A stretch of 41,119 bases of DNA. Origin: a delta proteobacterium MLS_D. GTDB lineage: Bacteria; Desulfobacterota; Syntrophia; Syntrophales; UBA2210. Location of the stretch: assembly GCA_002030015.1 (NCBI GenBank), contig LQBH01000001.1, positions 167,900-209,018 of the forward strand, given 5' to 3'. The notes below the pieces were generated by a model. That model was not told the origin of the DNA, ran no database searches, and saw only the letters and a list, made by a program, of their open reading frames with translations. Shown piece by piece: positions 3,030-25,819 of the stretch. How positions within the stretch are numbered: position 1 is the stretch's first letter; every line of letters starts with the position of its first letter. The translations under genes and the position numbers were made by a program.

Positions 3030-4694
3030 ATGCCGATCCAACTGAACATGACCGATTACAGGTCAACCGCGGAATCATTCACCTGGCAGGTACCCGAGTA
3101 TTATAATTTTGTTCTTGACGATTTTGACCGCTGGAGCGGCGACAGAACAAAAATCGCCCTCACTACGGTGTCGCCCGACGGAAAACAGGCGTCGCGGCTC
3201 ACGTTCCGCGACCTGTCAGTTCTTTCCTGTCAATTCGCCAATGTTTTGAAAGAACTCGGTATTCAGCGGGGCGACCGGGTTTTTCTCATGCTGCCCCGAA
3301 GCGAGGAATGGTATATCGCCGTCCTGGGCATGATCAGGGCGGGCGTTGTGGCGATGCCGACGCCCAACATGGTGACGGGTCATGATATCGAGTACCGCTT
3401 CAGCCGGACCGAGGCGGTCATGGCCGTGACGGACGCCGAAGGCGCCGGGAAAATCGACGCCGTCGCCGACAAACTGCCCTGGCTGAAAACAAAAGTAATA
3501 ACCGGCGAAAACCGCAAGGGATGGCTTTCTTTCGATGATTTGCTTGAAAAGGCTCCGCGGCGCTTCGATCCCGGCGACTTCGGAGGCACAACGAAAAGTT
3601 CCGATCCCATGCTTATCTACTTCACGTCGGGCACCACCGGCAACCCGAAAATGGTTCGCCACACGCAGTCCTACGCCATAGCCCATACCGTGACGGCCCG
3701 CTATATACAGAATCTGCGGTCCACCGACATCATATGGGTCCACGCGGACACGGGCTGGGCGAAGACCGCCTACGGGAAACTCTTCGGCCAGTGGATCGAG
3801 GGCGCCACGGTTCTGCAGTGGCAAATGGGCGGCCGTTTCGAACCGAAATATATGCCTGAAATCATCGAGCGTTACGGCGTGTCCGTGATGTGCGCTCCAC
3901 CCACGGCCTACCGCATGCTGGTCGGACACCTCGACCTTTCGAAATATGACTGGAGTGAACTGAAACACGCCCTGTCCGCCGGAGAACCTCTCAACCCCGA
4001 CGTGATACGGGCCTGGAAGGAGCAGACGGGGCTTACCATCTATGATTATTACGGGCAGACGGAGACCATTCCCGTGGTAGCCAATTTCCAGTCAATGCCC
4101 GTCAAGGAGGGAAGCATGGGAGTTCCCACGCCCGGCTACGACGTGGAAGTCGTTGATGACGAGGGGAACGTGCTTTCCCGCGGTACCGAAGGCAATATCG
4201 CCATTCGGGTCAAACCCTTTCATCCCCCGGGCGTTTTTCAGGGATACTGGCGGGATGAGGAGAGCACCCCCTTCGTGGGAGACTGGTATTTTACGGGCGA
4301 CCGGGCGTACCGGGACGAAGGCGGTTATTTCTGGTTCGTGGGACGTGCCGACGACCTGATCAAATCCAGCGGCTACCGCATCGGACCATTCGAAGTGGAA
4401 AGCGCGCTGCAGGAACATCCGGCCGTGCTGGAGAGTGCCGTCATCGGTGTTCCCGATGATCTCCGCGGGCAGCTCGTAAAAGCCTTCGTGGTCCTGGCGC
4501 CCGGCTACGAGGAAAGCCCCGATCTGGTGAAAGAACTTCAGGATCACGTGATGCAGGTTACCGCGCCCTACAAATATCCCCGGATCATAGATTTCGTAAA
4601 AGAACTGCCCAAGACCATAAGCGGCAAGGTCCGCCGTGTCGAGCTTCGGGCACGGGAAAAAGCGAGCGGTGGCCCGGACGTTCACCAGGCGTAA
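3030..4694 (+). CDS. AMP-forming acyl-CoA synthetase (medium-chain/benzoate-CoA ligase type)
   Basis: It activates a carboxylic acid to its acyl-CoA through an acyl-adenylate. The 554-residue product has the ANL-superfamily motifs in order: the P-loop YFTSGTTGNPKMV near 198-210, DYYGQTET, the YFTGDRAYRDEGG hinge region, GRADDLIKSSGYRIGPFEVE, and the C-terminal catalytic lysine (K533) in KTISGKVRR. Overall pattern resembles medium-chain acyl-CoA ligases (ACSM) more than acetyl-CoA synthetase; the substrate cannot be read from sequence. The ATG at 3030 is preferred over the longer frame from 2979 because AAAGGAGG at 3013-3020 sits 9 nt upstream. Probably co-transcribed with the ADP-forming synthetase upstream. 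Two activation routes side by side fit a fatty- or aromatic-acid-degrading anaerobe. Confidence 0.92.
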   Translation: MPIQLNMTDYRSTAESFTWQVPEYYNFVLDDFDRWSGDRTKIALTTVSPDGKQASRLTFRDLSVLSCQFANVLKELGIQRGDRVFLMLPRSEEWYIAVLGMIRAGVVAMPTPNMVTGHDIEYRFSRTEAVMAVTDAEGAGKIDAVADKLPWLKTKVITGENRKGWLSFDDLLEKAPRRFDPGDFGGTTKSSDPMLIYFTSGTTGNPKMVRHTQSYAIAHTVTARYIQNLRSTDIIWVHADTGWAKTAYGKLFGQWIEGATVLQWQMGGRFEPKYMPEIIERYGVSVMCAPPTAYRMLVGHLDLSKYDWSELKHALSAGEPLNPDVIRAWKEQTGLTIYDYYGQTETIPVVANFQSMPVKEGSMGVPTPGYDVEVVDDEGNVLSRGTEGNIAIRVKPFHPPGVFQGYWRDEESTPFVGDWYFTGDRAYRDEGGYFWFVGRADDLIKSSGYRIGPFEVESALQEHPAVLESAVIGVPDDLRGQLVKAFVVLAPGYEESPDLVKELQDHVMQVTAPYKYPRIIDFVKELPKTISGKVRRVELRAREKASGGPDVHQA

Positions 4695-4786: not shown

Positions 4787-5006
4787 GTCATTCCGGTTTT
4801 ATACCGTCCGTCATTCAGGTTTTATTTCGTCATAACGGCGCAGTGCACGCGGGCTGGAATCCTCCCCACTCCGTCATTCCGGCGCAGTACTCTCAAGGAT
4901 GCGCGGGCCGGAATCCTCCCCACTCCGTCATTCCGGCGTAGTACCCCAGGGGCACGCAGGCCGTAATCCTCCCCACTCCGTCATTCCGGCGCAGGCCGGA
5001 ATCCAG
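4787..5006. repeat. Tandem array of palindromic repeats, period about 54 bp
   Basis: Units start at GTCATTCCGGCG (4873, 4927, 4980), with degenerate members from 4787. Each carries a spacer such as AGTACCCCAGGGGCACGCAGG, then CCGGAATCC(T)CCCCACTCC. The final unit is a minimal GTCATTCCGG...CCGGAATCCAG palindrome. The array fills most of the gap between the acyl-CoA ligase and the M50 protease. Unit sequences differ at several positions and there are no unique spacers, so this is not a CRISPR array. A sister array lies at 6854-7093. Confidence 0.85.
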
Positions 5007-5827: not shown

Positions 5828-6727
5828 TCACCGGGCGTGACCGGCAACGGCATCCACGATTTCCCGCCATACCGGAGCGGGAAGGGCATGTCCCATTCCT
5901 TTAATGATGTTCAGTGACGATCCCGGAACGGCGTCTGCCGTATCGATTCCGCACTGGACGGGAAGCAGCGGATCGGCGTCGCCGTGAATGACCAGCAACG
6001 GCGTGTGGAGCGACCGAAGCGACTCGCGCCTGCTTCCGGAAGCATTGATGGCGGCTATCTGCCGGGCGACACCTCCGATGGAAAATCCCCGGTCAAAGCT
6101 CTGTCGCGCGTATTCGGCGACCCGTTCCTCATCGACGGGGAACCGTGGTCCGTTCAATATCCGCCACGTCTCGATAAAATGAGAAACAAAGGCCGTCCGC
6201 TCGGCCGGAGGGGGGACGGTGATGATTGTCAAAGCTTCCGGTGTCGGGGGAGGGAGAGAAGGATCGCCCGTGGTGGAACTCAGCGACGTGAGTGACCTGA
6301 TTCGTTCAGGCTTTTCCAGGGACATGGTTTGTCCGATCATTCCTCCCATGGACATGCCCATCACGTGGGCCGATGCAATTCCCAGATGGTCGAGCAGACC
6401 GAAGGCGTCTTCGGCCATGTCCGTCAGGAGATAGGGCACGGTGACGGACTCGCCGCGGGCGATCGATGCCAGGAGCCCGGCCACGTCGGGAATCCCGGCT
6501 TCGTCCAGCACCGTCGATCGGCCGACGTCCCGGTTGTCGAAGCGTATGACGAAATAACCCCGGTCGGCCAGCAATTCACAAAACTCACGGTCCCACATGA
6601 TCATCTGCCAGCTCAGTCCGTGAATAAGCAGTAAAGGTTCCGTCGATGCATTTCCGAATGTCTCGTAGGCGATCTCGATGCCGCTGGAAAGCGTTGTTTT
6701 CAATTCCCCGCTGTTCAGTATTGCCAT
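5828..6727 (-). CDS. Alpha/beta-fold hydrolase
   Basis: A 299-residue cytoplasmic alpha/beta hydrolase. The oxyanion-hole region is LLLIHGLSW (33-40). The nucleophile elbow GMSMGG puts Ser126 in place. Asp252 in HGDADPL and His280 in GMGHALP complete the triad. It resembles 3-oxoadipate enol-lactonase/haloperoxidase-like hydrolases, but the substrate cannot be assigned. The frame extends upstream to 6796; the ATG at 6727 is chosen because AAGGGGAAGG precedes it and the family homology starts right after it. It is convergent with the M50 protease (15 bp between stops). Repeat arrays lie on both sides of the pair. Confidence 0.87.
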   Translation of the reverse strand: MAILNSGELKTTLSSGIEIAYETFGNASTEPLLLIHGLSWQMIMWDREFCELLADRGYFVIRFDNRDVGRSTVLDEAGIPDVAGLLASIARGESVTVPYLLTDMAEDAFGLLDHLGIASAHVMGMSMGGMIGQTMSLEKPERIRSLTSLSSTTGDPSLPPPTPEALTIITVPPPAERTAFVSHFIETWRILNGPRFPVDEERVAEYARQSFDRGFSIGGVARQIAAINASGSRRESLRSLHTPLLVIHGDADPLLPVQCGIDTADAVPGSSLNIIKGMGHALPAPVWREIVDAVAGHAR

Positions 6728-6853: not shown

Positions 6854-7093
6854 GTCATTTCGGCGAATACCCTTACGGGAAAACGGGCAGGAATCCTACC
6901 CACTCAGTCATTACGGCGCAGTACTCCCGGGGGCACGCAGGCCGTAATCCATCCCACTCCCTCATTCCGGCGTAGTACCCCAGGGGCACGCAGGCCGGAA
7001 GCCGTCCCACTCCCTCATTCCGGAGTTGTACCCCAGTGGCACGCAGGCCGGAATCCATCCCACGCCGTCATTCCGGCGCAGGCCGGAATCCAG
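6854..7093. repeat. Second tandem palindromic repeat array, period about 54 bp
   Basis: The same unit type as at 4787-5006: GTCATT(C/A)CGG with spacer GTACCCCAGGGGCACGCAGG and CCGGAATCC followed by A(T)CCCACTCC. Successive units start near 6907, 6961, 7014 and 7067. The last is again the minimal GTCATTCCGGCGCAGGCCGG form ending in AATCCAG at 7093. The array occupies the gap upstream of the hydrolase and the cold-shock gene. Several units have drifted to CTCATTCCGG. Confidence 0.85.
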
Positions 7094-16552: not shown

Positions 16553-16707
16553 TGTCTTTATCCTTGTTGGAACGGTGCGGGAATCGTGCCGTCGGGCCCG
16601 GTTCCGGCCCTGCTGCCGGGAAGTATACGAAAGAGCGGTCCCCTGGTCAAGGTGAAATGGTTTTTCCTGTTATCATTTTGGACGTGACCCGGAATTTGCC
16701 ACACTTT

Positions 16708-17489
16708 GTCATTCCGGACCTGATCCGGAATCCAGCAGGTATCGTAAAAGGGACTGGATATATCTCGGGGCACTATAGTCGGTACCCGTCCGGCACGACG
16801 AGGGGATTGAACTAATGGAAAGCGCTGGATACCGGCCTTCGCCGGTATGACGGGAAAAATGTTTTATGGCGATACTTTGTCATTCCGGACCTGATCCGGA
16901 ATCCAGCGGGTATCGTAAAAGGGACTGGATATATCTCGGGGCACTATAGTCGGTACTCGTCCGGCACGACGGGGGAATCGAACTAATGGAAAGCGCTGGA
17001 TACCGGCCTTCGCCGGTATGACGGGGAAAGTGTTTTGTGGCGGTTTTATTTCATTTTGTCATTCAGGACGTGACCCGGAATAGGGTGTTCTTCGTCCTTC
17101 CGGATGTGACCCGGAATTTGCCACACTTTGTTATTCCGGAGGTGATCCGGAATCCAGCGGGTATCGTCAAGGGACTGTATATACCCCGGGGCGCTATAGT
17201 CGGTACCCGTCCGGCATGATGGGGGAATCGAACTAATGGAAAGCGCTGGATACCGGCCTTCGCCGGTATGACGGGAAAAATGTTTTATGGCGATTTTATT
17301 TCACTTTGTCATGTAGGACGTGACCCGGAATAGGCCACACCTCGTCATTCCGGACCTGATCCGGAATCCAGCGGGTATCGTCAAGGGACTGTATATACCC
17401 CGGGGCGCTATAGTCGGTACCCGTCCGGCATGACGGAGGAATCGAACTAATGGAAAGCGCTGGATACCGGCCTTCGCCGGTATGACGGG
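16708..17489. repeat. Four copies of a 146-bp composite palindromic repeat
   Basis: Copies lie at 16708-16854, 16879-17024, 17130-17274 and 17344-17489. Each starts with the palindrome ATTCCGGACCTGATCCGGAAT and ends with ATACCGGCCTTCGCCGGTAT. A conserved middle of about 100 bp separates them (TATCGTMAAGGGACTG..., GGGGCRCTATAGTCGGTAC, GAACTAATGGAAAGCGCTGG). Gaps between copies are 24-105 bp and contain additional half-palindromes (GACGTGACCCGGAAT). The copies are nearly identical to each other. They fill the 1-kb gap between the J-domain and ppsR genes; no protein gene is present. Confidence 0.9.
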
Positions 17490-17553
17490 AATTGGCGGAT
17501 GCCGCCCGGGAGGCCGTATCCTATTTTGATTTCGGGGCCCGTGCCACGGTTGT

Positions 17554-18369: not shown

Positions 18370-19971
18370 TTATGCCCCCGTTTTTACCGTGTAGCGCAGA
18401 ACAATTGTTTCACCCGGTTTAACGGACAGGTCGAAACGCGCTGTAAAGGCGTTGACGACCGTGAACGGGTGACTGCTTTCCGTGATTTCCCAGTCGCCGG
18501 AAAGTTGTTCCAGGCATTCGACGACAAGGGAATCGTTTTTCCGGTTCGTCACGGTTATTTCCCAGCCCGACTCGGAAACACGTGATGTAATACGTTTGAA
18601 TTCGGTCTGTTTACGCTTCGCCCTAATGTCGAAGGCGCTCCCGGCCTTGATGAAAACATCGGTGTCTTTCGGGGTGTGATCGATGCGGTCTTCTCCTATG
18701 AACCATCGCTGGCCCTCTTCATCGACCTGGTACAGGCGGACCTGTCCAGCGGGGAGCGGCATATCGAGATTGCCGGCTTCGTCGGTGCGGAACGAAAGTG
18801 AAACTTCGACGGGAACTTTCACCTCTTCTTCGGTCAGCTGGTGTGTGTGCCTGCCCGGTCCGGAGACGACACGATAGATTCTTTGCGGGTGAATGGTCCG
18901 GGGTGAAAACAGTTCGATCTGGCGTGACTGGTTGTTTTCGATTGTCACCGGCCGGGTCAGCTCGTAACGATAATATTCAAAGAGCGCCGCTTGTTCAAAC
19001 TGCTCCGGGGCCGGCGCGCTCCGGGCTACCATCATTTGGTCGCCGAATGCCGCTTTCGCCGCGTTTTGACGGCGGTTGACGTCGCCCGCGACAAGCGAAA
19101 CCACGGCGTTTCTGTAGTCGACACCGCTCCGGTTATCGATCGAAACCCAGGCGGACAGTTCCCCCGTTGGGTTTTTATCACTGATCGTAAGCAGATAGTT
19201 CGCCCGCCACTCCACGTTGCCGGTGAGGTACGAGAAGGCGATGTGCCGTTTCCCGGCTTTCTTGTTTTCAAAAAGCCAGGAAAGCGTCGGCTCGGCCGTG
19301 AGATCTTCCGGAACGTCGGGAAGAATCGTGATGCCGGGATGGCCGATGTAAATCTCGTCGCCGATTCGGTAAATCGGGACGTCGCGGTTGCTGAGAAGAG
19401 TAGCCTCCACCACGTCCTTACGGTCCTGCTGCCTGTTGTAGTCCATGAGCTTGACGGTTTTCCCCCGGTACCGCTCCAGGAGGGCCGCCCTGGTGATCAG
19501 GTCGTAGGAAAAGACCTGATCCAGGACACGGAATCCGTCGGGATCATCGAGACAGGAGATGTGAATACTGTCGGGAGTGATCCGGGCGGCCACGTCCGTC
19601 AGAAGCAACTCGCCGCCGCCGGCCGGAAGATCAACGAGCCGGGTGTCGGTGACGAGCGCCCATTGTCCGGAATAAATCGCGAGCCCCAGGGCCGTCCGGT
19701 CATCGGCCGTGCTCGTCGGCGCCGTTTCCTCCGCGTAAACAGAAAAGCAGGTAAAGAGAAGACATGTCGCGATGATGAGGAACCGTTGAATGATACCCTT
19801 TCCTGTGACTTCGGGCGTGACCCGTTGTAATCCCTGATAGTGGGGTGATCCGGAAAGTACTTGATAACACTGGATACCGGCCCGCGTGCCCGTCAGGGTA
19901 TGCGCCGGCATGACGACATTGCCTGTTTTGCGGGGTTCTGCAAAGGTCTCGATAAGTGAATGAATTTTCAT
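18370..19971 (-). CDS. DUF4139 domain-containing exported protein
   Basis: A protein of about 530 residues with a mid-N-terminal signal-like hydrophobic segment (FLIIATCLLFTCFSVYAEE) and a large beta-rich region typical of DUF4139 proteins. Landmarks include LVDLPAGGGELLLTDVA, YLTGNVEWRANYLLTI and VSIDNRSGVDY. The C-terminal half ends with a VKPGETIVLRYTVKTG strand. Function is unknown; outer-envelope localisation is inferred from the signal. The start is doubtful: ATG at 19971 (weak GGGGGA upstream) puts about 60 residues before the signal sequence, many encoded by a palindromic repeat at 19870-19914. No ATG, GTG or TTG lies just in front of the signal peptide. Directly followed by ppsR. Confidence 0.78.
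   Translation of the reverse strand: MKIHSLIETFAEPRKTGNVVMPAHTLTGTRAGIQCYQVLSGSPHYQGLQRVTPEVTGKGIIQRFLIIATCLLFTCFSVYAEETAPTSTADDRTALGLAIYSGQWALVTDTRLVDLPAGGGELLLTDVAARITPDSIHISCLDDPDGFRVLDQVFSYDLITRAALLERYRGKTVKLMDYNRQQDRKDVVEATLLSNRDVPIYRIGDEIYIGHPGITILPDVPEDLTAEPTLSWLFENKKAGKRHIAFSYLTGNVEWRANYLLTISDKNPTGELSAWVSIDNRSGVDYRNAVVSLVAGDVNRRQNAAKAAFGDQMMVARSAPAPEQFEQAALFEYYRYELTRPVTIENNQSRQIELFSPRTIHPQRIYRVVSGPGRHTHQLTEEEVKVPVEVSLSFRTDEAGNLDMPLPAGQVRLYQVDEEGQRWFIGEDRIDHTPKDTDVFIKAGSAFDIRAKRKQTEFKRITSRVSESGWEITVTNRKNDSLVVECLEQLSGDWEITESSHPFTVVNAFTARFDLSVKPGETIVLRYTVKTGA
19870..19914. repeat. Palindromic repeat inside the 5' end of the DUF4139 frame
   Basis: CTGGATACCGGCCCGCGTGC...GCGCCGGCATGAC has the same ends as the second palindrome of the 146-bp repeats (CTGGATACCGG and CCGGTATGAC, here CCGGCATGAC). 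It overlaps codons between two possible starts of the minus-strand gene and keeps them open. Confidence 0.7.
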
Positions 19972-20273
19972 GGCGGCAGTTCCCCCGTGATGATGTATTT
20001 CAGTTCCCGGGTAGTATCGTACCCGAGCGGAATACATTCATCAAGCGCAAAGATTGCGGGGACGGGACACGCCGCGGGCGGGTTTTAAAAATAATAATAG
20101 TAATAATTGATAGCATCATAAAAAGTCGAAAATCGCCCCTCTCCCCTCATTCTTCACACCAGGGGAACATGATTTTTTACGGGATTATCGGTAGTTGAGA
20201 ATTTAAATGGATTTTGGTATTTTCCACCCATTAGTGACTTACTCCTCAACTCCTGCTTAAAAAAACAAGAAAA
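19972..20273. other. AT-rich intergenic stretch
   Basis: About 300 bp between the DUF4139 gene and the broken gene at 20274. The stretch around 20085-20230 is much richer in A and T than the sequence to the left (runs such as AATAATAATAGTAATAATTG). It marks the left edge of a compositionally different block. I see no gene, no clear inverted terminal repeat and no terminator. Confidence 0.5.
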
Positions 20274-21928
20274 TCATGCGGCCATTTTCATAAGTTCTTG
20301 AGTTGACGCGATTAAAAATGCACTCAAGACATTGGCCAGTGTTATCCCTTTGGTCGTTACTTGATATTTATTTTGCCCCGGCAGCTTTTTGATGATGCCG
20401 TGATCGCGCAGCAATCGCAGGTAGCGGCTGGCACGTGCTGATAACTGCTTTTCTGTGCGATCGGAAGCCCAAGGCGTCTTTGTTAGCCCTTCGCGCAACG
20501 ATTTGTTCGTTATCCCGGAGAGTCGAAATTTTGGATCGGCGATCATCTTCAGTAAATCACGATCCTTTCCTGTTGCCCTTCGCGCAACGATTTGTTCGTT
20601 ATCCCGGAGAGTCGAAATTTTGGATCGGCGATCATCTTCAGTAAATCACGATCCTTTCCTGTTGGGTCAAGCGCACGAACACGGCGACCGTCTTGTGTTC
20701 GAGTCCGGGTTATCTTGTCAATAATTTCATGTGCGGGAGTTTGATCACCAAGGGTTGCAATATCCTTCATGAAGCGATCATTGACTTCACTGGACACCTT
20801 AGCCCGAAGGGCAACATCAGCCACGCCCTTTCGCAGAGGAAGCCGTGATTTCTTTTCATCAGGAGATTGACCTTGTTTGTGACGATGCACCCGGAATTTT
20901 TCGGGGCTGTTCATGGTCATTTCAGTTCGGAGCACGTTCTTTTCGTTGTAAACCTTGACGCTGTTGTTACCAACCCAATGCCGTATGCGGACACCATCGT
21001 TGAAACGATTTATCCTCGTGACAACCTCATCCTTGGATCGGAAATCAGGAGAACCATCCGTTTTTATCGGCCGATCCAGATAGCGCAATACCCGTGCACT
21101 TGTCCCGGTCATGTGCGCATGACGAATTAAGGAATCCATGATGGAACTCAAATCTTCCGGAGAATTGAAAATCAGATCGCTTGCCCATTCGCTTTGCCAC
21201 ATTGTCCAATAATACGAAAGATGATCGCCGAGGATGTCCTTCATCATGGGAAACACGGTCGGAAGAAATCCGTTGAGAATATCCGCCCAACGGCTATCCA
21301 ACTGGGCGTTAAGGATTGTCTGGGCTTTTGCGTAATCGTCTATCTGAAAAAATTTGTTCTTGTGGGCGCAAAAACCTATCTTCTCTGATTCAAGCTGGCG
21401 ACGCAACCACTCTCTACCATTGAGATGAACCTGAATGGCGTATGGGAACCATGTCTGCAGTCGAACGTTCATAAACCCGAACTCTTCATGATCAAAATAG
21501 AAATACAGATGCTTGCATCGGGTCTGATAATTTTGCAGTTGAGGATACCCTGTCTTTGCGCAATAGCTCGCACGATACGAAGACCCGCCTTCCTGACACG
21601 ACCACACTCCGATGAGACCCTGTTTGATTCCTTCGTTTTGCTGGCGATCATGAGCCAATTCTTCTTTGCGGATGCGCCATGTGGAAATGGGAATGATTCC
21701 CTGACCACTCTGACTCTTCGCGTATTGATCGGTAAATTCAACGATCTCAGCCGTATTTTTCATCATCCAGGCTTTGTAATCCTTGTTGAGAATGCCTCGT
21801 GTCCTGCAAAAATCCATAGCTCCTTGTGAATACATCAAAGGCAGAAGCATCCCCTTAAACACAATACGATCAAATCCGGAAATATACCCCTTGACTAATT
21901 TCGAGAATCTCTTTATCAATTCGTCCAT
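20274..21928 (-). pseudogene. Gene of unrecognised family, frameshifted by an 89-bp tandem duplication
   Basis: The first 459-residue frame (21928-20549) begins MDELIKRFSKLVKGYISGFD. It ends with LRE-GQQERIVIY after reading into the second copy of an 89-bp tandem repeat. The remaining frame (20546-20274) restarts at MIADPKFRLSGITNKSLREG. It continues into a winged-helix-like end (SARASRYLRLLRDHGIIKKLPGQNKY). Removing one 89-bp copy leaves 1,566 bp, exactly 522 codons, so the ancestral product had 521 residues. I do not firmly recognise the family. The AT-rich setting and lone position suggest a selfish or mobile gene, but terminal inverted repeats are not convincing. The duplication is perfect, so the break is recent. 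Confidence 0.75.
20486..20663. repeat. 89-bp perfect tandem duplication
   Basis: Two identical adjacent units, 20486-20574 and 20575-20663, starting GCCCTTCGCGCAACGATTTG and ending GATCCTTTCCTGTT. Eighty-nine is not divisible by three, so the duplication shifts the minus-strand reading frame that spans it. Confidence 0.95.
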
Positions 21929-22177
21929 GCATCACCTCTTCTGGTTTTTTGGTTTTTGGAAATCTCAATCTATCAGAATGGTGATGCATTTTCATCTTAA
22001 AACATTGGGTTGCGGGCGCAAGCCCGCGTTAGATCATTGTTATTTCGAAATTTCTTGACAAATACAATCTGTGAGGGTAAAGGCCAACAACTAATCCGCA
22101 GAGCCAAATTATACAAGCTAAGCACATGGGTGCTTGGTTTGGTTTGGTGTAACTATTTGATATGGAAAGGAGAAGTT
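21929..22177. other. Intergenic region with two hairpins
   Basis: ATGCATCACC (21927-21936, overlapping the start codon of the minus-strand gene) is perfectly complementary to GGTGATGCAT (21980-21989). Further on, GCGGGC (22012-22017) pairs with GCCCGC (22022-22027) around GCAA, a stable tetraloop hairpin. The region also has to hold the promoter of the downstream Cache/chemoreceptor genes, for which I see no convincing match. No coding region is supported. Confidence 0.55.
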
Positions 22178-22678
22178 ATGAGAAAGAGAAGTTCATTTTT
22201 TGCCATTGCAGTGGGTGCAGCAGCGGTGTTTTGTTTGAGCTTGCCAGCGTTTTCTGCTGAGTTCAAGCACGCCCCCGAGGACAAGGCCAGGGCCGAAAAG
22301 GCCGTCCAGCAAGTCGATAAGGCCATTGAGTTCATTCAAAAAAATGGTCAGGCTGCCGCAGTCAAGGCATTCCACGATCCCAACAGCGGTTTTATCGACG
22401 GCGAGTATTTTATTTTTTATATTAAATTCGATGGCACCTATCTGGCGCATGGCAAGCTCCCCGTAATGGACGGGAAAAACATTCTGAATGTAAAAGATCC
22501 CGACGGGAGATTTCTCATTCAAGATATCGTGGCAATCGTGAAGGGACCTGGCTCCGGATGGTATCGATATAAATGGAACAATCCGGACACGAAGGCAACG
22601 GAGTGGAAAATTTCCTACGCTAAAAGGGTGCCCAACACCGAGACGTTTGTGGGTTGCGGGTATCACAAAAAAATCTGA
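22178..22678 (+). CDS. Secreted single-Cache-domain protein
   Basis: A 166-residue protein with a signal peptide (cleavage after AFSA, about residue 27). The rest is essentially one Cache-type ligand-binding domain: FIDGEYFIFYIKFDGTYLAHGKLP, then NILNVKDPDGRFLIQDIV, then GSGWYRYKWNNPDT and a closing FVGCGYHKK strand. This matches the sCache_2 pattern normally found as the extracellular part of chemoreceptors, but here it stands alone with no transmembrane anchor after the signal. AAAGGAGA lies 7 nt before the ATG at 22178, so the longer frame from 22010 is rejected. A chemoreceptor gene follows, and the product may bind a small organic acid in the periplasm for it. That partnership is inference. 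Confidence 0.85.
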   Translation: MRKRSSFFAIAVGAAAVFCLSLPAFSAEFKHAPEDKARAEKAVQQVDKAIEFIQKNGQAAAVKAFHDPNSGFIDGEYFIFYIKFDGTYLAHGKLPVMDGKNILNVKDPDGRFLIQDIVAIVKGPGSGWYRYKWNNPDTKATEWKISYAKRVPNTETFVGCGYHKKI

Positions 22679-22697
22679 TTTTAGAAGTTTTTTGCAA

Positions 22698-22731
22698 CCT
22701 CTTTGTCGTATGATCGATTACGACAAAGAGG
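22698..22731 (+). terminator. Perfect 13-bp hairpin after the Cache gene
   Basis: CCTCTTTGTCGTA (22698-22710) pairs fully with TACGACAAAGAGG (22719-22731) over an 8-nt loop, 20 bp after the stop. There is no T tract, so it may be an mRNA-stabilising or partially terminating hairpin rather than a full terminator. Confidence 0.6.
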
Positions 22732-22749
22732 CGCATTATTTAAGGTTCA

Positions 22750-22790
22750 AGCTGCTTTTCAGGATGGTTGTCTCCTCTTGAAAAGCAGCT
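22750..22790 (+). terminator. Second perfect hairpin upstream of the chemoreceptor
   Basis: AGCTGCTTTTCA (22750-22761) pairs fully with TGAAAAGCAGCT (22779-22790) over a 17-nt loop, followed by a short T-rich stretch (GGGTTTCTTTT). Together with the preceding hairpin it could uncouple expression of the Cache gene and the chemoreceptor gene. Confidence 0.5.
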
Positions 22791-22831
22791 GACGGGTTTC
22801 TTTTATCCCATATACAAAAAAGGGGGGTATT

Positions 22832-24364
22832 ATGAATATACTCAACCGATTAAGTTTGATGAAGAAACTTCTGGTTGGTCCGGGTGCGGTGGTTATTTTA
22901 GTGCTGGTTATGGCCGCATTGTCCTTTCAGGGGATGGTATCCCAGAAAAACGCCCTTTCAAGAATTTATCAGGTCAATTTCAAAGACTATCAAGCACTTG
23001 CCCAGATACACCAAGAGATGGAAGCTGTGCAGGGCAATATCAACAAAATGATAAACTGGATAACAGTCAATACGGAAAAAACCAAAATTGGCGGGTTGGT
23101 TAAGACACAACAGCAGGTCATGGCAGCCAATATCGAAAAAATCGACAAGATGATAAAGAAATCCGCCGCGGCAGAAGAAACAAAGAAACTGCGCAATCTG
23201 GCAATTCTCCTTAAAGACTATCAAAAAGTAGCCAAAGACGTTATGGATATTTCTGAGGTTGATCCCAACTCCGCTGCAATGATGGCGTCGAGCGATCTCG
23301 AGAACCGATATAATGTTCTGGAGCAGAATCTGAAGGCTGTTTTAGTTGCACAGGATGCAATGGGACAGAATAATTACAAGCAATCGGAGCAATCTTTCAG
23401 CCGTACCATTTTAATTTTTTCGCTTGTTCTGGTGGGGGTGATTCTTTTAGCCGTAGGGCTTAATTTTTATCTGGCCCGTTTGATTTCCGCTCCTGTCAGG
23501 CAAGCCAATTATGCTGTTCAGCAGATTGCTCAAGGGGATCTTACTCGGGAAATAACTGTTGACAGTAGAGATGAGGTTGGCGAGCTGGTTGGAGCTATTA
23601 ATGAGATGCGTTTGAAATTTGGAGAGGCAGTGGGAGAGTCGGTGAATCTGTCTCAGACCCTCGCTGATGGCGCATCCCAACAGGCCGCCTCTATCGAGGA
23701 GACCTCTTCCTCCATGGAGGAGATGTCTTCCATGATCAAGCAGAATGCGGAGAATGCCGGACATGCTGATAATTTGTTTACGGTGACGGACAGCCTGATC
23801 GAAAAAACCCGAGTTTCAATGGCAGATTTGACAGCCTCTATGAAAGAAATTTCCCACGCCAGTGAAGAGACTCAGAAAATAGTCAAAACGATAGATGAAA
23901 TAGCCTTTCAGACCAATCTGTTAGCCCTGAATGCGGCGGTGGAGGCGGCCAGGGCCGGAGAGGCCGGGGCTGGTTTCGCCGTGGTTGCCGACGAGGTGAG
24001 AAATCTTGCATTACGTTCTGCGGAATCAGCCAAAAGTACAGCGAATCTTATAGAGGATACGGTTAAAAGGATTAAGGGCGGCGTGTCTCTGGTTACAACA
24101 ACTAACAATAATTTCAATGAAGTTGCGTCCAATTCCCACAAAGCCAAGGAACTGGTGCAGGAAATAGCCGCAGCCTCAAAAGAGCAGGCCCAAGGCATTG
24201 AACAGATTAATATGGCTATCACGGAAATGAACAGTGTCACGCAAAAAAACGCCTCCGGGGCTGAAAAGCTGGCAGCCAAGATGTCCTCTTTCAAAACGGA
24301 TCCTGCAACTCTCAGCCAAAAGCCAGGCCGCCGTCATTCCCAGAAGCTGCTAACCTCCCCATAG
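22832..24364 (+). CDS. Methyl-accepting chemotaxis protein
   Basis: A 510-residue membrane chemoreceptor. TM1 is about 12-34. The periplasmic part is a helical bundle (about 35-190, 4HB-like with heptad-rich [15 protein letters not shown]). TM2 is about 192-214, then HAMP (about 215-265) and a long signalling coiled coil. The invariant hairpin tip [21 protein letters not shown] and [20 protein letters not shown] follow. No CheR/CheB-docking pentapeptide is at the C-terminus (it ends KLLTSP). A purine-rich AAAAAGGGGGG precedes the ATG. Its own sensor domain is helical, while the gene before it encodes a free Cache domain, so sensing may be indirect. Base composition is more AT-rich than the housekeeping genes. 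Confidence 0.94.
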
Positions 24365-24597
24365 CAATTTTCTGGAAACATGCTGAAATAACACCATTTT
24401 CATGACTATTAGCGACATCACCCTGTGATCGCCAACACAAAAGGTTTTGCAAAACCCACAGGCTGACCTTTTCGGCTCTGCGAGCAGAAAAGGGGACAGA
24501 TTTATTTTCGCTACCCCAACATTTAGAAAAAAATATCTGACGCGACTGTGGGGTGGAACATGCCATTGTCAGGAAAGGTATGATGTCCCCGGTTTTT
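24365..24597. other. Non-coding stretch rich in short palindromes
   Basis: It contains the perfect 14-bp palindrome GGTTTTGCAAAACC (24443-24456). Next comes CCTTTTC...GAAAAGG around CTCTGCGAG (about 24467-24493), then GGGGACAGATTTATTTT. Near the right end is a matching ATGTCCCCGG. The GGGGACAGATTT motif recalls ends of repeats mobilised by IS200-like REP transposases, but no transposase is present. No protein gene is supported. Confidence 0.45.
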
Positions 24598-25002
24598 TTA
24601 AATACTGTGTTGAGAAATATATTCTAACGCTGCGGTTGCGAGCAATCCAGAACGCGTTTCACCTTCACGTTGAGCGTAGGAATCTATTTTTGTCAGTATG
24701 TTTTCGGGGATTGTTACATTTATTCTCCTGACCGCTTTCGATAACTTTGCAAGATCCACATTTACTATTCCCCAGATTATTCCATCTTCCGTTATTTCAT
24801 CTTTTAATTTTTCAATTGAAGAGGGATTAGGAATTGTTTCATTATCGATGAATAGACCTTCGACGTGGGTTAAAATTGCTTCCTGGGCATTCTCCAATGC
24901 TTCTTCAACTGTAGTCCCGGATGAAAAACAACCAGGAAGATCGGGAATTGTCACGCCATAGTCGCTGTCTTTATCTTTCTCAAGAAATACCGGGTATTTC
25001 AT
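24598..25002 (-). CDS. hicB: HicB-family antitoxin (orphan)
   Basis: A 134-residue antitoxin-type protein. The N-terminal partial RNase H-like fold is unmistakable: KYPVFLEKDKDSDYGVTIPD, then LPGCFSSGTTVEEALENAQEAI. A C-terminal ribbon-helix-helix DNA-binding segment follows (RRINVTIPENILTKIDSYAQREGETRSGLLATAAL). Normally it would neutralise the HicA mRNA interferase encoded just upstream and repress the operon. Here only the last 20-odd codons of hicA remain upstream, ending one base before this ATG, so the antitoxin has no visible toxin. It could act in trans on another HicA or simply be decaying. Confidence 0.9.
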   Translation of the reverse strand: MKYPVFLEKDKDSDYGVTIPDLPGCFSSGTTVEEALENAQEAILTHVEGLFIDNETIPNPSSIEKLKDEITEDGIIWGIVNVDLAKLSKAVRRINVTIPENILTKIDSYAQREGETRSGLLATAALEYISQHSI

Positions 25003-25003
25003 G

Positions 25004-25075
25004 TTATTTCTCCCATTCTATGCCGGCCTGCTTGAACATGCTCCTTACCGTTCCTTTTGGCAAGTCGGCCTTTGG
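25004..25075 (-). pseudogene. hicA toxin remnant (C-terminal tail only)
   Basis: Directly upstream of hicB, a minus-strand frame reads DLPKGTVRSMFKQAGIEWEK and stops with TAA one base before the hicB start. The KGT(V/L)RSxxKQAGI pattern is the conserved C-terminal end of HicA mRNA interferases. Going further upstream the frame hits TGA at 25076-25078. The catalytic N-terminal region (double-stranded RNA-binding fold with its His) is missing, having been replaced by the region of the response regulator gene. The toxin is therefore truncated and inactive. Confidence 0.75.
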
Positions 25076-25155
25076 TCACCAGACCGGAGATTCCCGGAAC
25101 AGTTCTCCCGAGGCCGGGTCGGAATTTCGTAAAACAACCGAAGGGGATCGATGAG

Positions 25156-25605
25156 ATGAGGGCTGAGAGGGTGATTTTCCTGGTGGAGGATAATGCGGAC
25201 GATGAACTGCTGGCAATGCGGGCGCTGCGGAAAAACAACGTTGCGGACAGAATCGAGGTGGCCCGTGACGGCGAGGAGGCTTTGTCGTTCCTGTTTAAAA
25301 AAACGCCGAGAGTAGAGCCTTCTTTAATACTCCTCGATCTGAAACTGCCCGTGGTGGACGGCCTGGAGATCTTGCGTCGTATCCGCGCTGACGAGAGGAC
25401 GAAGCTTTTGCCCGTGGTCGTACTTACCACGTCAAGCGAAGAACGCGATATCATCGCCAGTTACAGCCTCGGCGCCAACAGTTACGTGCGTAAACCGGTT
25501 GACTTCGAGCAGTTCAACGAGGCGGTCCGTCAGCTTGGCCTGTACTGGCTGGGAATCAACGAGAAGCCGCCCGTGAGGCGGTTCGAGGAAGAAAGCGCCC
25601 GGTGA
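25156..25605 (+). CDS. Single-domain response regulator (Rcp1/CheY-like)
   Basis: A 149-residue stand-alone receiver: EDNADDELLAMRAL with the acidic pocket, phosphoacceptor Asp61 in LILLDLKLPVVDG, the TTSSEERD switch region, and the conserved Lys in YVRKPVDF. There is no output domain. Such proteins usually relay phosphate from phytochrome- or PAS-type kinases, none of which lies adjacent. The longer frame starts at 25057. ATG 25156 is chosen because AAGGGG lies 9 nt upstream and the receiver begins at once. It sits exactly at the edge of the truncated hicA, so the recombination event that removed the toxin placed this gene here, or the reverse. Confidence 0.92.
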   Translation: MRAERVIFLVEDNADDELLAMRALRKNNVADRIEVARDGEEALSFLFKKTPRVEPSLILLDLKLPVVDGLEILRRIRADERTKLLPVVVLTTSSEERDIIASYSLGANSYVRKPVDFEQFNEAVRQLGLYWLGINEKPPVRRFEEESAR

Positions 25606-25633
25606 TTTTTTCTTGTGGAGCGCCGGCCGTGTT

Positions 25634-25819
25634 TCACCGAATAGTGAGAGCAAACCAGCCGAACCAGACAAGCACCAGTACCGGAAGCGCCCTGCCGACG
25701 GTATAGATTCTCCAGACCTGCCATTTGCTGCGCGCGCCGAGGGCCTTTTCAACCCGATGCGCGGAAACAAACCGGCAGAACAGTGTTGCGCCGAATATAC
25801 CAAATAATAACGAGGACAT
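25634..25819 (-). CDS. Small hydrophobic protein (61 aa)
   Basis: Possible short membrane protein: MSSLLFGIFGATLFCRFVSA is a hydrophobic helix, then a basic linker (KALGARSKWQVW), then a second helix VGRALPVLVLVWFGWFALTI. Codon use is like that of neighbouring genes. No convincing ribosome-binding site precedes the ATG at 25819 and no family is recognised. It is convergent with the response regulator, and the two stop codons are 28 bp apart. Treat as a candidate. Confidence 0.4.
   Translation of the reverse strand: MSSLLFGIFGATLFCRFVSAHRVEKALGARSKWQVWRIYTVGRALPVLVLVWFGWFALTIR

Follow-up and report, generated by a model that had tools for sequence, protein, structure and literature searches.

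A split gene in a delta proteobacterium looks like the transposase gene of a widespread, apparently undescribed family of bacterial mobile elements

Elements of the IS200/IS605 group carry a hairpin at the end, lack terminal inverted repeats, use a fixed target that is not faithfully duplicated and give rise to short derivatives moved in trans; their transposase is a small HUH enzyme of the Y1 type. The RAYT proteins are of the same IS200/IS605 HUH type and are usually not mobile themselves. The element described here resembles IS200/IS605 in its end hairpin, in the absence of terminal inverted repeats, in its short fixed target without faithful duplication and in short derivatives that would be moved in trans, but it encodes a 520-aa protein without an HUH motif. 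It is also reminiscent of the REP/RAYT elements and REPINs, whose short palindromic repeats are believed to depend on a transposase; unlike these, its units have two distinct ends and its full-length copies are mobile. IS91 is described as transposing by a rolling-circle-type route without inverted or direct repeats (PMC5714925). Our element shares the lack of inverted repeats with IS91, whereas the enzymes of IS91/ISCR and of the Helitrons are HUH-type (with two conserved tyrosines in IS91) and act on other ends and another target.

The closest likeness on the side of the enzyme is found among replication initiators. In the Rep_trans proteins the metal ligands are D46, D142 and E214 (D9, D116 and E196) and the nucleophile is Y191 (Y179), and their sheet is described as sharing the connectivity of the TATA-binding protein, TBP (Carr et al., PMC4797284). 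With the Rep_trans initiators (PF02486; RepD/RepDE, RepSTK1) and the MOBT relaxases our element has in common a predicted sheet that may be TBP-like, an N-terminal Asp, x-x-[DE]-x-A-x-D, [RK]-x-Y and R-x-E in the same order, a C-terminal DNA-binding domain of the HTH type and a hairpin at the DNA site. It differs from them in showing no Pfam-level similarity, in having Q-x-E for R-x-D and a longer core, and in being housed in a 1.7-kb IS-like unit rather than in a plasmid, phage or ICE. Rep-Arvir, a group of archaeal initiators that includes RepSNJ2, combines a TBP-fold core with a MarR-like winged helix-turn-helix and was recognised by structure, not by sequence; its key residues are, in order, E25, D207, Y283 and E303, it makes use of a DNA hairpin, and it matches the viral TBP model A0A2N9QVX7 (PMC13107129, 2026), which the core studied here also hits, at E 5.7e-3. 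By analogy, Rep-Arvir may be taken as a close precedent for the enzyme of our element, with the differences that it replicates archaeal viruses and plasmids and has its Tyr in a KHYYM context, the likeness being drawn from its published description (PMC13107129). The Rep_trans enzymes are listed for plasmids, phages and conjugative elements in the pertinent parts of PMC5714925, where transposition is treated under IS91 and the helitrons, and PMC13107129 describes them for the same kinds of element. Among the titles and opening lines of abstracts in the open literature searched, none reports a Rep_trans or TBP-fold transposase in an insertion sequence; ISfinder may hold an unclassified entry.

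The locus lies in a window of 41,119 nucleotides (contig LQBH01000001.1, positions 167,900 to 209,018) from the delta proteobacterium MLS_D, inside a 209-kb contig of an assembly of 70 contigs (2.51 Mb, 96% complete, 3% contaminated). A preliminary description of the window had claimed that a recent tandem duplication of two perfect 89-bp units (20486-20663) splits one reading frame in two and inactivates a gene of an unrecognised family. Indeed, Tandem Repeats Finder (TRF) reports a period of 89 with 2.1 copies and 98% matches at 20481-20664, and comparison of the sequence with itself at a shift of 89 gave 90 consecutive identical bases from 20486 to 20575, which implies two perfect copies (Table 1). 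Chance is ruled out, since the longest exact run in 28 relatives or pieces was 11 bases at any shift from 12 to 399. The breakpoint shows a short imperfect TGTT match, with TTTGTTA before the first copy and CCTGTT both at the junction of the copies and at the end of the second, as illegitimate recombination or slippage would leave. Both predicted open reading frames were found as claimed, and by arithmetic removal of one copy would leave 1655 - 89 = 1566 bases, that is 522 codons including the stop, in agreement with the 517 to 521 aa of full-length close relatives counted from the aligned start codon. The description of the duplication as recent and inactivating is supported. The frame is shifted at the start of the C-terminal winged helix, so that the predicted core is complete in the 459-aa piece, which lacks the DNA-binding domain. 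The C-terminal 90 aa taken alone resemble winged-helix families, below the curated cut-offs, and the C-terminal domain of the relative L040 is a winged helix as well.

Table 1. Features of the element in the window (positions are those of the whole stretch)
Feature	Position	Strand	Basis
Whole insertion-sequence-like element, 1802 bp including the duplication; left end 22032, right end 20231	20231..22032	-	Ends match those of relatives with unrelated flanks
Left end: CTAAC, hairpin (6-bp stem, 4-base loop), AACCC	22007..22032	-	
Right end GTAAGTCACTAA, 31 bases past the stop codon	20231..20242	-	
N-terminal piece (459 aa) with the entire predicted catalytic core; its final residues are out of frame	20549..21928	-	
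C-terminal piece, 90-aa ORF; winged helix-turn-helix domain	20274..20546	-	HTH_45 E 1.3e-4, below curated cut-off
89-bp unit, copy nearest the 3' end of the gene	20486..20574	-	TRF and direct comparison
89-bp unit, second identical copy	20575..20663	-	TRF and direct comparison
Asp20 codon, invariant; proposed metal ligand	21869..21871	-	15/15 rows of A7; alignment ranges fit D9/D46
Glu247 codon (Q-x-E-x-A-x-D); proposed metal ligand	21188..21190	-	15/15 rows of A7
Tyr327 codon, invariant, motif K-x-Y; proposed nucleophile	20948..20950	-	15/15 rows of A7; at Rep_trans motif III position (hhalign, not significant)
Glu336 codon, invariant, R-x-E; proposed metal ligand	20921..20923	-	15/15 rows of A7; range fits E196 of 4cij

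The gene is enclosed by two dissimilar ends without terminal inverted repeats, and these match the conserved ends of relatives, which sets the limits of the element at 20231 and 22032. The repeated unit whose ends the preliminary description had proposed to define is thereby delimited, its guess at a mobile gene gains substance, and its mention of AT-rich surroundings agrees with a GC content of 44-48% for the element against 55% for the window. Across the family the left end takes the form CYAA, hairpin and AACC upstream of the ORF. In the subfamily of the window it reads CYAA, a stem of GYGGGC with GCCCRC, and AACCCAA, and the right end TAAGnnACTAA stands 31 or 32 bases past the stop codon. 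In the loci L005 and L009 the common block opens just ahead of CCTAAC, hairpin and AACC upstream of the ORF and closes with GACTAA downstream, and the window's subfamily has this layout in other letters. A right end TAAGnnACTAA follows the stop in 12 of 15 loci, a count that stands without a shuffle control and comes from patterns that demand CTAA; wherever there is an ORF, the right end keeps a constant distance from the stop.

The left end was assessed by a stem-agnostic scan, a fairer test than a pattern with a fixed stem, and was found upstream of 14 of 21 loci as against 1 of 420 shuffled sequences. The 21 loci were chosen for a readable start codon, leaving out L009 (near-identical to L005), copies that lack the 5' part (such as L043, L048, L050, L052 and L057) and other fragments. 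Seven gave no left end (L045, L047, L054, L056, L010, L018 and L024), and for the last three the scan gave no right end as well; the left end of L045 lies beyond the 450 bp scanned and was counted as a miss, and L047 has a long bulged hairpin that exceeds the limits of the scan. In this hairpin of L047 (Kiritimatiellae, 3859-3931; -35.7 kcal/mol as DNA) the stem, which is quite unlike the others, extends over about 26 bp, compared with 5 or 6 bp elsewhere, and CCAA and AACCTAA are retained around it. The hairpin of the window element folds at -8.2 kcal/mol as single-stranded DNA (z -2.35), with 4 of 200 shuffles equally good, and is the sole match of the left-end pattern in its own genome. Of 13 sequences, 8 have CG and 5 have UA at one stem pair, without a mismatch; because the initial search for the left ends of this alignment (A9) used a pattern in which most of the stem is fixed, only this freely varying pair counts as covariation. 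Two loci show further end-like sequences: just past the right end of L044, TGTGAGC-TTTA-GCCCACAACCC forms a hairpin like that of a left end with one mismatch, reflecting either two elements end to end or an insertion beside an older end, and L046 has a second identical left end (97 bp, 6241-6337) at the contig edge, which suggests that several copies in that Hydrogenedentes genome broke the assembly.

The protein had no match in Pfam or NCBIfam above the curated cut-offs (the best E-values for the core, 0.14 and 0.02, belong to unrelated families), so the family was rightly called unrecognised. The core had no PHROG match and no sequence match in the PDB, and the family profile retrieved no more than two PDB sequences, both of winged-helix proteins (E 0.055 and 0.92). 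Matches occur in 5 of 60 near genomes and, with the family profile, patchily in 29 of 395 genomes of the phylum, the own genome being included in both counts. A near-full-length match in a stop-free frame of at least 500 aa was seen in 8 of the 29 (G197, G028, G231, G115, G372, G427, G336 and G377); the matches in the others are shorter or interrupted, several of them at contig edges. Of 77 pattern matches in a scan of named genomes, 20 were relatives; they come from groups that include Desulfobacterota, Hydrogenedentes, Kiritimatiellae, Lentisphaerae, Verrucomicrobia and Bacillota. Distant relatives reside on plasmids of Paraburkholderia, Caballeronia, Rhodococcus and Mycobacterium; the window protein as query matched 8 plasmid records and the Paraburkholderia protein matched 12, itself included. 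The Paraburkholderia plasmid gene (WP_063501089.1) is annotated as an ArsR family transcriptional regulator, both element ends are present around it, and a search of plasmids yielded no further copy of its unit. Relatives were found neither in viral contigs, with three different queries, nor in phages.

L005 and L009, which come from different bacterial families, have 1695 bp in common at 96% identity and no flank similarity outside this unit within the loci compared. Thus the family presents discrete units with one transposase ORF at unrelated sites and, for the short copies, empty sites, and we regard its mobility as well supported. In the genome of the window itself, where the preliminary description had suggested looking for an intact copy, the assembly holds none, and a distant decayed relative is located on contig 59. 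Pseudobacteroides cellulosolvens carries a frameshifted copy (L051, 4602-5426) and, at a distance of about 41 kb, another piece of it that lacks the 5' part (L057, 3990-4815), the two being 99% identical over 826 bp.

Several genomes also contain short units of 138-309 bp that have both ends and are too small for a gene, such as L060 (229 bp), L063 (173 bp) and L064 (138 bp). An identical 155-bp unit occupies two sites with unrelated flanks in G197 (L078, L081), and G231, G115 and G254 have several units each, from 138 to 309 bp. Those of the copies that were found by end patterns are thereby selected on these ends, and the right ends of nine were picked by eye. Of five copies compared with empty sites, two gave a clean result. 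At L144 the inserted unit is flanked by CCTAA on each side, and the corresponding empty site in G254 is GATTG-CCTAA-AAATACC; the empty site of L083 shows a single CCTTA. The empty site of L080 is consistent with these, its target having diverged, and L103 and L107 gave no clean site. The findings fit a CCTAA-like target that occurs singly before insertion and is seen at both ends of the unit afterwards; at L144 a plain target duplication would look alike. Against plain target duplication counts the pairing of a left CCAA or TCAA with a right CTAA, seen in every one of the five such copies for which a right end was matched (L014, L044, L045, L046, L064), under a pattern that demands CTAA. The combination of terminal inverted repeats and target-site duplication known from DDE-type elements was not found in the family, although CCTAA on both sides of L144 speaks the other way. 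The left flank of L104 in G115 contains a 34-bp piece that matches more than 30 other places in that genome, a further short dispersed repeat.

A clean empty site for the window element was sought in the same-genus genomes G003 and G004 and rejected, because the matches break off at 20096 in G003 and at 20054 in G004 and start again at 25747 and 25655, respectively, so that a whole block is missing there. The flanks of this AT-rich block (20097-25650) adjoin in both genomes, which makes it an island here or a loss there; we take it to hold, besides the element, sensor-like, chemoreceptor-like and HicB-like genes. Other repeats occur in the window. The ORF at 18370-20037 (minus strand) contains in its 5' part about 169 bp (19783-19951) that are missing from G003 and G004; the core of this stretch has matches at many sites of G000, G003 and G004, which marks another dispersed repeat. 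The tandem arrays at 1178-1262, 4845-4994, 6886-7078 and 16703-17491 have units that share stretches of the CCGGAATCC or CCGGAATGAC type, and by these letters look like one dispersed repeat family of the lineage.

The fold of the core was predicted with AlphaFold2 from residues 1-393 of the window protein and 19 relatives or pieces. The model (pLDDT 89.5, pTM 0.86) has long strands of the antiparallel type; an earlier full-length model of L040, built from 12 sequences, was of low quality (pLDDT 63.8), and the structures matching it were for the most part winged helices. Foldseek gave nothing for the core at E <= 0.001 in the PDB or the viral library; the viral TBP model A0A2N9QVX7 was matched at E 5.7e-3, above that threshold, and HMG-CoA reductases, the top PDB rows, were judged spurious (TM about 0.2, rmsd about 13 A). 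In VIA-align the TATA-binding protein came first (Z 8.5, 176 residues, 3.8 A), and the Rep_trans structures 4cij (Z 6.9, 186 residues, 4.6 A), 4cwe (6.7, 173, 4.7 A) and 4cwc (6.4, 172, 4.8 A) scored under 8, a range that may mean only a common arrangement. The Rep_trans model PF02486 gave no hit at E <= 1 with pieces of the window protein or at E <= 5 with L005, L007 and 12 members of alignment A5. Comparison with three Rep_trans proteins by hhalign was not significant (probability 0.2%); it serves here solely to locate the best local match, the stretch K-x-Y ... R-x-E.

Seven of the 16 columns that are invariant among 15 aligned proteins are D20, Q245, E247, K325, Y327, R334 and E336. The Rep_trans order D, D, Y, E is reproduced by D20, E247, Y327 and E336, each on a predicted strand, with Glu for Asp at the second place; the correspondence is one of order only. 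Q245-x-E247-x-A249-x-D251 would be equivalent to R-x-D-x-A-x-D, K325-x-Y327 to R-x-Y and R334-x-E336 to R-x-E. Motif I thus has Q-x-E as against R-x-D in Rep_trans, and the Lys after the Tyr is Glu in 9 of the 15 rows of A7. In the wider alignment A8, Glu247 is kept in 16 of the 17 rows that reach it, with Gln in the other. The motif order N-I-III-IV was also obtained in 53 of 200000 label permutations of the 16 invariant residues, a figure that serves as a guide only, since the pattern was chosen post hoc. Read without gaps, the alignment range that sets model 10 on chain -1 places D20 on D9, the one that sets model 13 on chain 39 places D20 on D46, and with model 392 on chain 252 E336 falls on E196 of 4cij; at their other end, the ranges of 4cwe and 4cwc gave no gap-free fit to E214. 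No His is present among the 16 invariant columns, hence no His-hydrophobic-His motif; H140 and H317 are nearly invariant only and lie far apart. From the model we infer that the transposase may use the chemistry of a TBP-fold tyrosine nickase.

The preliminary description had left room for a phase-variable off state and for an assembly error. The identical tandem copies could in principle revert by recombination, as a host gene switched by slippage of the 89-bp repeat would require; yet there are two copies only, the gene sits between the ends of an IS-like unit, most of its relatives are fragmentary or otherwise broken, by stops and truncations, and a tandem array is present in 0 of 28 relatives or pieces (exact runs, shifts 12-399). 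One-off decay fits this better, and phase variation has the slightest of chances. It is hardly more credible that the gene is a resident DNA-binding regulator, as the ArsR annotation of the plasmid relative and the C-terminal winged helix would have it, given the conserved ends outside the ORF, in the plasmid copy too, the patchy spread over several phyla and a core of 390 residues without a match above the Pfam or NCBIfam cut-offs. An artefact that hides an intact gene gains some plausibility from the fragmentation of the assembly and nevertheless seems improbable to us, in view of two perfect copies inside a 209-kb contig with microhomology at the breakpoint. Moreover, short-read assemblers collapse such repeats more commonly than they expand them.

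A somewhat more serious rival, though still an unlikely one, keeps the insertion sequence but gives its transposase a different chemistry (of HUH, DDE or unknown fold), the likeness to Rep_trans being convergent or spurious. The missing sequence-level match to the Rep_trans model and the non-significant Foldseek E-values would accord with it, and a TBP-like sheet alone does not imply nicking; it is opposed by the absence of His-x-His from the invariant columns, by the absence of terminal inverted repeats and by the four invariant residues of catalytic type, which follow the Rep_trans order and all lie on predicted strands.

We consider it probable that the locus is an IS-like element with a TBP-fold core, a Rep_trans-like site and a winged helix, killed here by a one-off 89-bp duplication. 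In such an element the C-terminal winged helix and the core would recognise the hairpin end, Asp20, Glu247 and Glu336 would hold the metal, and Tyr327 as nucleophile would cut one strand at CTAA-like sites. A single-strand intermediate might then be joined into a short CTAA-like target without faithful target duplication, and the short copies, being non-autonomous, would be moved in trans. The duplication would have arisen once, at a short microhomology, severing the winged helix from the core, and would then be one more way in which such copies die. On the best reading, the window holds a dead copy of an insertion sequence with a TBP-fold tyrosine nickase as transposase; both ends being intact, an active relative, of which this assembly has none, could still move it.

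Transposases are classed by their chemistry, and on balance we lean towards a new bacterial class: insertion sequences moved by TBP-fold (Rep_trans-type) nickases, a single-strand chemistry beside HUH Y1/Y2 that spans several phyla and feeds miniature repeats with hairpin ends. If this is true, a domain of plasmid replication became a transposase independently of the HUH route, common genes annotated as hypothetical or 'ArsR-like' gain a function, and the intergenic repeats with hairpins that several genomes contain acquire a mover. Its small size makes the element amenable to direct testing in a laboratory strain.
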